A stretch of DNA of 64,000 bases from contig CACJEG010000001.1 of assembly GCA_902592375.1 (NCBI GenBank), positions 124,001 through 188,000 of the forward strand, in the 5' to 3' direction. The position numbers and the translations under genes are program-made. The stretch is from an uncultured Pelagibacteraceae bacterium (GTDB lineage Bacteria; Pseudomonadota; Alphaproteobacteria; Pelagibacterales; Pelagibacteraceae). Positions 8,978 through 59,163 of the stretch are shown piece by piece; the first letter of the stretch is position 1; each line of letters starts with the position of its first letter. The notes under the pieces were generated by a model, which ran no database searches, was not told where the DNA came from, and saw only the letters and a program-made list of their open reading frames with translations.

Positions 8978-10902
8978 TGTTAACCCAATTTGTAACAATA
9001 TTAATTATCGTATCTGTTATTGGCTGTATTCTTTATGGAAGAAGATTAATTAAAACTGAAAAAGTTGATGCAGTTTTTGGTAATCCAGAAAGAGCAAAAG
9101 GTGGAACTCACTGGGTAATAGTTGGAACCAGCGCAATTCTCATGTTGTGGCTTTATTATTCGTGGGATATCGCAAAAGGCTTCTATCCAAAATCAGCAAA
9201 TGAATTATGTCAAGTTGCTAAAATTAATGAGTCATTATTAGGTTTAAAATATCAATTCCCTATTGAGGAAAGAGAATTCAAAAGCACATCTATTATTAAA
9301 ATTGAAAATAAAAATCTTGTAAAAATTGCAAATGAGATAAAAGCATCTCCAGATCTAAATGATCAACAAAAAACAATCCTTGTTAGCTACATTGATAGAA
9401 CTTCTAAATTAATTCCTTTCTTAACCAGTGAAGAGTTAATGGAAATGGATACCAAAATTAAACTTAAGGAAATAACAGAAGAAATAAAAGTTTTAAGTTC
9501 TAATTTCCAAAAGAAAGATTATCCTTTTGAAACAGATGCTCAAAAAAATGAAAGACAAAAGCTTATTAATGAGCAAGGTGGTTGGGGAATAACAACAATA
9601 GATTCTGGAAGTGGTTCTATAGAAAATACAATAGAAATACCAACTGCACCACAAACGAATAGAGGTTTAAAATTTGCTGCAGCAGCTGCTGAACTTAAAA
9701 TTATAAATGATAAATTTTTTAAAGTAAGAAATCATAATCCACAGTTTAAAAATGCGATTAAACAACTTAAAGATGATATCAAAGCTTATAGAAAGAGTTT
9801 AGATGACAGTATGGAGATTGCATCTGATTATGCAAAGAACATTGTTAAAATTGCTAGAAGAATAGAGTTTGCAAGTATCTATCCCCCTAATGCATTAAAT
9901 GAAATGCAGGCAGCAATTGTTGAATTTGATGAATTACAAAATAAAGAGCAAGGTGGATTAAGATTAATAGATATTCTTTTATTCCCTGCTGGGACAATTG
10001 TTGCAAGTGGACCTACATGTTCAGAACAAGGATCAGGAAGATGGTTACCAAAACCATCTGATACATTTAATAAATTTATCCTGATGTCAAAACCAAGTGT
10101 TGGCTACAAAAATATTCCTCTTTTATGGATTGAGATGGTGGACGTGAGTAAAATGATAGGATTTATTTTACCAGACTGGATTGCAGATATAATGCCTGGT
10201 GAATATCCAGTGCATACTAAAGATGGAATAGTAAAAGAAAACTTTAAAAGTAATGTGTTAAAAGTTGTTACAGGTGATTTCAAATTATTTAAAGTGCCTG
10301 TTCCATACGGACATATCTGGGATTCTTTTTTAAGAGTATTCTTAGGACTAATCTTTGGTATCATAATTGGTGTACCTCTAGGATTATTTATGGGTCTAAA
10401 CAGATTTGCTAAAGGTTTCTTTGATCCACTAATTGAACTTTATCGACCGGTCCCTCCTTTAGCATGGGCACCTTTGATTATTTCAGTTCTTGGAATTGAT
10501 AACTCAGGAAAGGTATTTTTATTATTTATGGTCTCTTTATCAATTATGATTATTTCTGCAAGAGCTGGTGCATCAGGAACACAACTTTCAAAAATCCATG
10601 CAGCCCACTCATTAGGCGCTACTAAAAAACAAATATTAAGACACGTGATTTTCCCTAATTCACTCCCTGAAATTCTTACAGGAATTAGAGTTGCAGTTGG
10701 TATGTGTTGGGGAACACTTGTTGCTGCAGAGTTTTTAGCGGGTACAACCGGTATTGGTTTTGTTGAAAACGTTGCTAAAAAATACTTCCAATATGAGGTA
10801 ATTTGGATAACGATATTTATTATGGGTCTACTTGGTCTTTTATTTGATATTACATTAAGAAAAATAATCGATAAAACTATTCCTTGGCGTGGAAAAGGAT
10901 AA
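8977..10902 (+). CDS. TauC-like ABC permease with a very large N-terminal/periplasmic extension
   Basis: The last about 195 residues are a normal SsuC/TauC permease: helices from about residue 448, and an EAA loop (AAHSLGATKKQILRHV, about residues 543-558) that docks TauB. Ordinary TauC is about 275 residues; this protein has 641. The extra part has two hydrophobic segments near residues 1-22 and 45-64, then about 380 residues with few hydrophobic stretches, lysine/glutamate-rich and partly coiled-coil-like, including a GPTCSEQGSGRW segment at about residue 346. Topology predicts that this domain is periplasmic. The reading frame is continuous and preserved, so the extension is real rather than a gene-calling artefact. 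Role unknown; docking of TauA or ligand capture are possibilities. Confidence 0.85.
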   Translation: MLTQFVTILIIVSVIGCILYGRRLIKTEKVDAVFGNPERAKGGTHWVIVGTSAILMLWLYYSWDIAKGFYPKSANELCQVAKINESLLGLKYQFPIEEREFKSTSIIKIENKNLVKIANEIKASPDLNDQQKTILVSYIDRTSKLIPFLTSEELMEMDTKIKLKEITEEIKVLSSNFQKKDYPFETDAQKNERQKLINEQGGWGITTIDSGSGSIENTIEIPTAPQTNRGLKFAAAAAELKIINDKFFKVRNHNPQFKNAIKQLKDDIKAYRKSLDDSMEIASDYAKNIVKIARRIEFASIYPPNALNEMQAAIVEFDELQNKEQGGLRLIDILLFPAGTIVASGPTCSEQGSGRWLPKPSDTFNKFILMSKPSVGYKNIPLLWIEMVDVSKMIGFILPDWIADIMPGEYPVHTKDGIVKENFKSNVLKVVTGDFKLFKVPVPYGHIWDSFLRVFLGLIFGIIIGVPLGLFMGLNRFAKGFFDPLIELYRPVPPLAWAPLIISVLGIDNSGKVFLLFMVSLSIMIISARAGASGTQLSKIHAAHSLGATKKQILRHVIFPNSLPEILTGIRVAVGMCWGTLVAAEFLAGTTGIGFVENVAKKYFQYEVIWITIFIMGLLGLLFDITLRKIIDKTIPWRGKG

Positions 10903-58351: not shown

Positions 58352-58475
58352 TTTTGGAAGTAACTTAAGTTAGCGGGAATCTACTAAAGCACTAGGTTGT
58401 ATTCAATAAATATATTTACTCAAAATTAAAATAAATTAATTGAAATTGTATAATTTATAATTACCTTTTTTATAG

Positions 58476-58630
58476 AAGGAGGTTTATGTTAATACTTTCA
58501 CCACCTGATACTTAGCTGAACAGCTCATATTTCAAAAATATAACGAAAAATAAATTCCTCTCGGAATTATAATGCCAAAGAGGCGATACAAGGGAGCTCT
58601 TTAGGTATACACTTAAAGAGCGAACCCTTT
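58476..58630 (+). ncRNA. Candidate structured RNA with a 9-codon ORF, between convergent genes
   Basis: The 284-base gap between the two convergent genes is not empty. It holds the full anti-Shine-Dalgarno complement AAGGAGGT before ATG, a 9-codon ORF (MLILSPPDT, 58486-58515), then AATTCC-TCTC-GGAATT (58553-58568) whose loop region CCTCT can also pair with AGAGG (58579-58583). A last stem GCTCTTTA/TAAAGAGC (58596-58621) carries an outer AGGG/CCCT closure and a GTATAC in its loop. No U-tract follows, so this is not an ordinary terminator. The upstream 120 bases, including a TATAAT at 58449, are AT-rich and could hold a promoter. Name and role unknown. Confidence 0.4.
58486..58515 (+). CDS. Possible 9-residue leader/micro-ORF
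   Basis: ATG-TTA-ATA-CTT-TCA-CCA-CCT-GAT-ACT-TAG follows a perfect AAGGAGGT at ideal spacing. It is too short for the ORF track. Two consecutive prolines (CCA CCT) near the end would slow ribosomes, as in attenuator peptides. No downstream gene on this strand lies near enough to be attenuated, so a small dual-function RNA is the alternative. Expression is unproven. Confidence 0.3.
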   Translation: MLILSPPDT

Positions 58631-58635
58631 AAAAA

Positions 58636-59163
58636 CTAATTTACAGATTTTAATATTTCTAGTGGAAGTGGAGCTTCTGGGTATTTTTTTTGACACAATT
58701 TTTCATAGTTTTCACAAAAACTCATGATAGTTTTTTTAACTTCTTTTTTATTTTTATTTGAAAGATTAAGGTCTTTAATTAATTCACTGCAATTTTTTTC
58801 TAATTCTTTTATTTGCTCTCCTGAAAAAAATTCTCCTGTTTCTATTTCCCAATAAGTGTCTTCAAGCTCATCATCAGTTAAATCATTTAGTTTTTTCTGT
58901 AATAATTTAATAGTTTCGTCCTCTGTTGCTTTATCTCTCATAGGAGAATTTTTAAGTTTTCCAAGGCATTTATCTCTTAATCCATCAATGAAATGAAAAT
59001 AAGGTTTACCCTCTGAAAAATCTCTAAAATGATTTGTACTAAAATACTTATCTATAGCTCTTTCTGTAGAAACCTTTTCTTTGCCCTTAATTATTGCTAT
59101 TTGCACATAAACTTCTTGGCTAATATATTCTTCTATATGATCTTTAACTTTTTGAGGTATCAT
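58636..59163 (-). CDS. Hypothetical soluble protein
   Basis: 175 residues with no recognised family. It is highly charged (lysine and glutamate), largely helical by pattern, with no signal peptide or membrane segment. Four cysteines (RDKCLGK, EKNCSEL, SFCENYEKLCQKK) could form a metal site or be incidental. It lies 13 bases downstream of the cytochrome c'-like gene on the same strand, so probably shares its message. Its strong, continuous coding pattern supports a real gene. Confidence 0.6.
   Translation of the reverse strand: MIPQKVKDHIEEYISQEVYVQIAIIKGKEKVSTERAIDKYFSTNHFRDFSEGKPYFHFIDGLRDKCLGKLKNSPMRDKATEDETIKLLQKKLNDLTDDELEDTYWEIETGEFFSGEQIKELEKNCSELIKDLNLSNKNKKEVKKTIMSFCENYEKLCQKKYPEAPLPLEILKSVN

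Follow-up and report, generated by a model that had tools for sequence, protein, structure and literature searches.

A free-standing structured RNA of Pelagibacterales with a conserved Pro-Pro mini-ORF near its predicted 5′ end

The locus and the fold of the RNA

The window analyzed here is a 64,000-nucleotide stretch of DNA from an uncultured Pelagibacteraceae bacterium. A free-standing structured RNA of ∼160 nt (58474-58630, + strand) lies in a gap between two of its genes. The ends of this RNA are approximate: we place the 5′ end at or just before a Shine-Dalgarno (SD) sequence and the 3′ end past the last stem. Comparison among relatives yields an anatomy that comprises a promoter of its own, a 5′ end at the SD, an ORF of 6-10 codons and a 3′ domain of three hairpins, after which no gene follows on that strand. 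Two covariance models, R1 and R2, match the window at 58469-58630, and the fold of the region beats that of shuffled sequence (z = −3.4). Judged by comparison of sequences, the RNA is structured, translated and free-standing, and we hold with moderate confidence that it is a translated small RNA with a regulatory role in Pelagibacterales. The gene that follows, on the opposite strand (58636-59163, −), encodes a 175 aa protein (MIPQKVKDHIEEY...) that is the most frequent convergent neighbor of the RNA and gives no match in Pfam.

Three hairpins on the + strand make up the 3′ domain. H1 (AATTCC-TCTC-GGAATT, 58553-58568) has five of its six base pairs changed on both sides among relatives. H2 (GCC-AAAGA-GGC, 58574-58584) is conserved, with one pair altered from CG to GC in a distant clade. 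H3 (AAGGG-A-GCTCTTTA...TAAAGAGC-GAA-CCCTT, 58590-58629) consists of the stem GCTCTTTA/TAAAGAGC at 58596-58603/58614-58621 and a closing AAGGG/CCCTT helix at 58590-58594/58625-58629, separated by an asymmetric internal loop, and 7 of its 12 pairs are changed on both sides. The original prediction, made from the sequence of the window, had named the AATTCC/GGAATT hairpin and the GCTCTTTA/TAAAGAGC stem closed by AGGG/CCCT, both of which are present. Its further suggestion that the loop of the AATTCC hairpin also pairs downstream is not borne out by relatives, in which this loop is mostly ATTT, GTTT or TATT.

Covariation, which had been proposed as a check, is strong in both main stems. In an alignment of 43 sequences, which are related so that the counts do not represent independent events, 96.6% of cells pair and 12 of 22 base pairs are changed on both sides, mostly in H1 and H3. 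Cells with double changes number 61, compared with 16 in shuffled alignments, and none of 500 shuffles reaches 61. When the partner column is slid by one position as a control, pairing falls to 59-65%. Moreover, G-U combinations outnumber A-C combinations 53 to 10 in H1 and H3, and thus the + strand is the one that folds.

In 106 of 108 unique loci the RNA and the nearest gene downstream converge, and these genes belong to many unrelated families with diverse products. The earlier observation that no same-strand gene follows, and that the element is therefore not an ordinary leader, holds well beyond the window: leader function is excluded for nearly all members, and we rejected a leader peptide, an attenuator and a riboswitch because a same-strand regulated gene is missing downstream. 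The nearly constant convergence of the neighbors would also suit a bidirectional terminator or some other DNA element between genes, with no RNA gene at all, and H1 read on the minus strand does resemble, by inspection, a terminator hairpin followed by a T-run. However, a consensus scan of the gap finds no intrinsic terminator on either strand, and the + strand has no U-tract, the feature on which the original prediction had set the element apart from terminators. A DNA element would not be expected to show the G-U excess of the + strand, nor does it account for the conserved promoter, SD and reading frame described below. We therefore regard this explanation as highly improbable.

Distribution, promoters and known RNA classes

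BLAST searches with the gap sequence recover the element from many genomes of the window's genus. A search for the ORF pattern identifies it in 137 of 397 Pelagibacterales genomes, with one copy in each and all in that genus, and the reversed control pattern has no match in the genomes listed. Model R1 extends the distribution to 150 of the 397 genomes of the order, nearly always as a single copy and including two more genera, while R2 adds one further genus and more members. Among 151 high-quality genomes of the order, 76 carry R1 matches; the RNA is thus dispensable, or has diverged, in the remaining half or so. A collection of ∼85,000 species holds at least 118 matching stretches, and among the matches listed all are from Pelagibacteraceae or Pelagibacterales. 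No match was found in the viral contigs searched, nor with R2 in sampled genomes of the class Alphaproteobacteria outside the order. Model R3, built from a sister family (see below), gives only weak and scattered matches in wider Alphaproteobacteria, which we take as probable noise. One locus (L204, G187:C6:25790-25942) with the same upstream gene as the window holds a decayed copy of the RNA that lacks SD, start codon and promoter.

Upstream of the RNA, genomes of the window's genus carry an inverted repeat, GGTTGTATTCAA...TTGAATACAACC, whose two arms each contain the −35 box of one of a pair of divergent promoters. The right arm belongs to the predicted promoter of the RNA. Its −35 box TTGAAA (58440-58445, +) is a degenerate arm in this lineage and reads TTGAATACAACC in many relatives. 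The likely −10 box is TACCTT (58462-58467, +), with a spacer of 16 nt and 10 nt upstream of GGAGG, and an alternative −10 box, TATAAT, is present at 58456-58461 (+). A + strand −35/−10 pair that ends 7-11 nt before GGAGG occurs at 115 of 135 loci, compared with 1.3 in shuffles, which places the expected start of the RNA right at the SD. This conserved promoter is indirect evidence for a transcript.

The left arm GGTTGTATTCAA (TTGAATACAACC on the − strand; 58395-58406, −) is retained in 125 of 135 unique relatives and is a unique intergenic site among the sites checked in the window's genome. It holds the −35 box of the divergent promoter, whose −10 box TAGATT (58378-58383, −) follows after a spacer of 17. 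All 125 arm-bearing loci have TAnnnT at exactly 17 nt, compared with a mean of 1.6 at other offsets. This strongly conserved promoter (TTGAAT-17-TAGATT, 58378-58406, −) faces away from the RNA. Within the window, transcription from it would enter the upstream + strand gene at its 3′ end and so yield an antisense transcript or a second small RNA. At three other loci (L209, L212 and L213) a membrane protein of 59-60 aa (M..STIIIYALNIIAGFAGADY..F..GEAFIIWILMAILVNNC) is encoded on the divergent promoter, to the left of the RNA on the − strand; this protein occurs in several relatives, is not beside the RNA in the window and has no match in Pfam. Such a divergent partner gene was rejected as the cause of the palindrome, which persists at loci whose left gene is unrelated and oppositely oriented. 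We also rejected TTGAATACAACC as a regulon motif, since the palindrome recurs neither at its other exact copy nor at the near matches that were read.

The original prediction allowed that the RNA might belong to a known class. A search of Rfam 15 gives no match to the region up to E = 10, and relaxed thresholds applied to distant members and sister-family loci return only weak, sub-threshold chance matches. ARAGORN reports only a tRNA-Met in the window, and tmRNA was rejected accordingly. In HTCC1062, where the tmRNA lies at 10302-10518 (PMC2704228), the element fills the intergenic region 762678-763012 between SAR11_0785 and qacH (the SAR11_0785/0786 gap). This gap appears in Table 1 of Meyer et al. 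2009 without an assigned RNA, its 76 BLAST hits being fewer than the 200 set there as the cut-off (PMC2704228); its length of 335 nt and its GC content of 27.76% are exactly those of that table. The SAR11 RNA motifs of the same study are rpsB, rpsL, ffh, SAM-V, rhtB, pntA, bablM and SAR11_0636 (PMC2704228). They come from the same organism group, but their coordinates and described structures differ from those of the present element. The SAR11_0636 motif in particular was rejected, because it forms a three-stem junction in the SAR11_0635/0636 gap, whereas the element consists of serial hairpins without a junction. Genome G012 of our comparison set also carries the element, and we take it to be HIMB5. 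A screen of alphaproteobacterium HIMB5 by Stav et al. 2019 gives the GC-IGR candidates HRC-1 and HRC-2, three sORFs and one sRNA, as well as unnamed ones (PMC6429828). This candidate list may already include the motif.

The Shine-Dalgarno sequence and the mini-ORF

A perfect SD and a nine-codon ORF, MLILSPPDT, featured in the original prediction and are present in the window. The SD AAGGAGGT (58476-58483, +) occurs once in the whole 64 kb when both strands are counted and ends 2 nt 5′ of the ATG; its AGGAGG core is invariant in alignment A1. The mini-ORF runs from ATG to TAG at 58486-58515 (+). Conservation of its frame had been named as a further check, and in 118 of 118 unique relatives an ATG stands behind the SD in frame with (P)P[DE][TI]-stop. 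The distances from ATG to Pro in these 118 sequences (6, 9, 12, 15, 18 or 21 nt) are all multiples of three. The 29 distinct peptides vary at the N-terminus and end in PPDT, PPET, PPEI or, in one clade, PDT, directly followed by the stop. Codons change among relatives (CCA/CCG, CCT/CCA, GAC/GAT/GAA and ACT/ACA/ATT), as do the stops (TAG/TAA/TGA), and Asp is replaced by Glu in other genera. The search pattern preset part of this motif, whereas the BLAST and model searches did not, and members found by the models obey the same rule (MKSPPDT, MKTPPDT, MSKLTPPDT, MSPPET and MSPPEI). With frame and stop kept and synonymous changes accumulated, sequence comparison indicates that the mini-ORF is translated. 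The retained frame, the covariation and the convergent neighbors support the original view that the element is a conserved RNA, either a small RNA or one of dual function, and not a leader or a terminator.

A near-invariant C-terminus, a strong SD and a retained stop might mean that the short peptide is itself the product, with the RNA structure merely protecting a tiny mRNA. We consider this unlikely, because the N-terminus is free in both sequence and length, the whole peptide can be as short as six residues, and the covariation of the hairpins is stronger than plain mRNA protection seems to need. The stop region carries an additional constraint, since TAG ends 98 of 114 mini-ORFs, whereas among the window's 56 long ORFs it ends only 7. 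Frameshift read-through beyond the stop was rejected by eye, as the frames are soon closed and the longer ones are broken by indels.

The most conserved block of alignments A1 and A3, CCACCTGATACTTAGCTGA (58501-58519, +), encodes Pro-Pro-Asp-Thr-stop and continues with CTG(G/A). It includes CCACCT, which is able to pair with the AGGAGG of the SD. A hairpin within the ORF (CCA-C-CUGA/UUAG-C-UGG) was rejected by eye, being feasible in many members and broken in others, including the window's own clade. One clade has a single Pro (MLKLPDT or MLNLPDT, then stop), in contrast to PPD or PPE in all other f1 clades, and carries a second ATG, out of frame, that overlaps the SD. At loci of this clade (L198, L200, L201 and L202) the RNA lies directly 3′ of a gene for a Fur/Zur-like regulator, so named by eye.

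Another family of Pelagibacterales (loci L254-L271) has a conserved small RNA with an SD and start of the form GGAGGTTAAAAAG[A/T]TG, a start-x-Pro-Pro reading frame, hairpins and a U-tract terminator; it also carries a conserved GGGTGGTGTCCACAAC. In two genera (g2 and g3) a stop follows no more than two codons past Pro-Pro(-A/T), while g4 has no early stop and a 19-codon ORF. These ORFs are mainly PPA or PPT (MNPPA, MTPPTL), most without an acidic residue. When the f1 model R2 is run on the sister-family loci, its six best matches all fall on the element and in register (E ∼0.001-0.35); the reverse test is weaker. By sequence, this RNA is a probable distant relative of the f1 RNA.

These data bear on an explanation that keeps the translated RNA but treats Pro-Pro as incidental. 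The conservation of CCACC(U) would reflect its pairing with the SD as a self-limiting initiation hairpin, and the ORF would merely be opened and closed by ribosomes, as an occupancy switch or 5′ stabilizer, with no pause. In keeping with this, RNAalifold on A1 pairs columns 9-15 with 37-43, that is, AGG.GG(U) of the SD with (A/G)CC.CCU, and the sister-family model pairs GTGG with CCAC. Pro-Pro is kept in the sister family despite the changed residue that follows it. In addition, the first Pro codon (58501-58503 and its homologs) is CCA or CCG in 114 of 114 unique two-Pro sequences and never CCC or the perfectly pairing CCT. Because CCT makes up 39% of Pro codons in the window (277, compared with 380 for CCA), perfect pairing of this codon with the SD seems to be avoided. 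Conversely, the middle base of the SD always faces a mismatch, and folding the window's element together with upstream sequence gives a minimum-energy structure that lacks the SD hairpin. The peptide is also implicated by the change from Asp to Glu, with the frame kept across several length classes. We regard this explanation as possible, if doubtful.

A possible paused-ribosome input and comparison with known systems

We infer, with moderate confidence, that a ribosome pausing on the 5′ Pro-Pro mini-ORF may control the hairpin domain of the RNA. In the most far-reaching form of this proposal, which we advance tentatively and do not consider probable, the state of this one ribosome would be the input of the RNA, with EF-P or translation status relayed in trans and not to a gene downstream. 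The very strong SD would load a ribosome once the 5′ end of the RNA emerges. One codon ahead of the stop this ribosome would pause at Pro-Pro-Asp/Glu, a motif of EF-P-dependent pausing, such that its footprint would cover the conserved block and hold the 5′ end engaged. The occupancy, which EF-P and the state of translation would determine, would serve as the signal and decide either the lifetime of the RNA or the re-sequestration of the SD by CCACC, and the 3′ hairpins would be the effector, acting in trans on a partner. In Escherichia coli, PPD was seen exclusively at PPX sites that pause, and PPE belongs to the EF-P-dependent pauses (PMC4140641). A gene for EF-P is present in the window's genome.

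PPA and PPT are weaker pause contexts. Since these predominate in the sister family and one f1 clade retains a single Pro, pausing may not be the conserved point, and the conservation of CCACC may reflect pairing with the SD and not Pro-Pro. These observations and the possible CCACC-SD pairing keep two alternatives to the paused-ribosome proposal alive. An abortive event could take the place of a pause: early Pro and acidic residues would cause the 70S ribosome to fall apart, and the RNA would report Mg2+ or ribosome stability as do Salmonella mgtL and mgtQ, yet as a free-standing molecule. Every f1 ORF has Pro and Asp/Glu within codons 3-10, and mgtQ offers a precedent in which the ribosome is destabilized by the acidic residues of a short ORF, with the following gene under the control of alternative stem-loops (PMC8092293). 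However, most sister-family ORFs lack the acidic residue and there is no downstream gene to switch, and we judge this alternative improbable.

We know of no RNA class in which the input of a paused ribosome is relayed in trans from a free-standing RNA. SAR11 bacteria, among the most abundant cells on Earth, have streamlined genomes in which few regulators are known. A small RNA that has persisted across the deep divergences of SAR11, and that is outside the known motif lists compared here, would be one of the main unstudied regulators of this group. A 5′-terminal SD combined with a Pro-Pro-acidic ORF of 6-10 codons, and with no gene downstream, suggests that an RNA acting in trans can use a paused ribosome as its sensor.

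SgrS/SgrT, Spot 42/SpfP and RNAIII/hld are small RNAs with a dual function that are also translated. The element resembles them in being free-standing and in having its own (here predicted) promoter, a small ORF and parts that are structured or non-coding. It differs from them in that the ORF has only 6-10 codons and lies at the extreme 5′ end behind a near-perfect SD, and in that only the Pro-Pro-acidic end of the ORF is conserved. With mgtL and mgtQ it shares a short ORF with Pro and acidic codons, alternative hairpins nearby and, by analogy, a likely input from EF-P or ribosome stability (PMC6460261, PMC8092293). However, mgtL and mgtQ lie in the leader of, or between, genes of the same transcript and act in cis (PMC6460261, PMC8092293), whereas no gene follows the present RNA on its strand.
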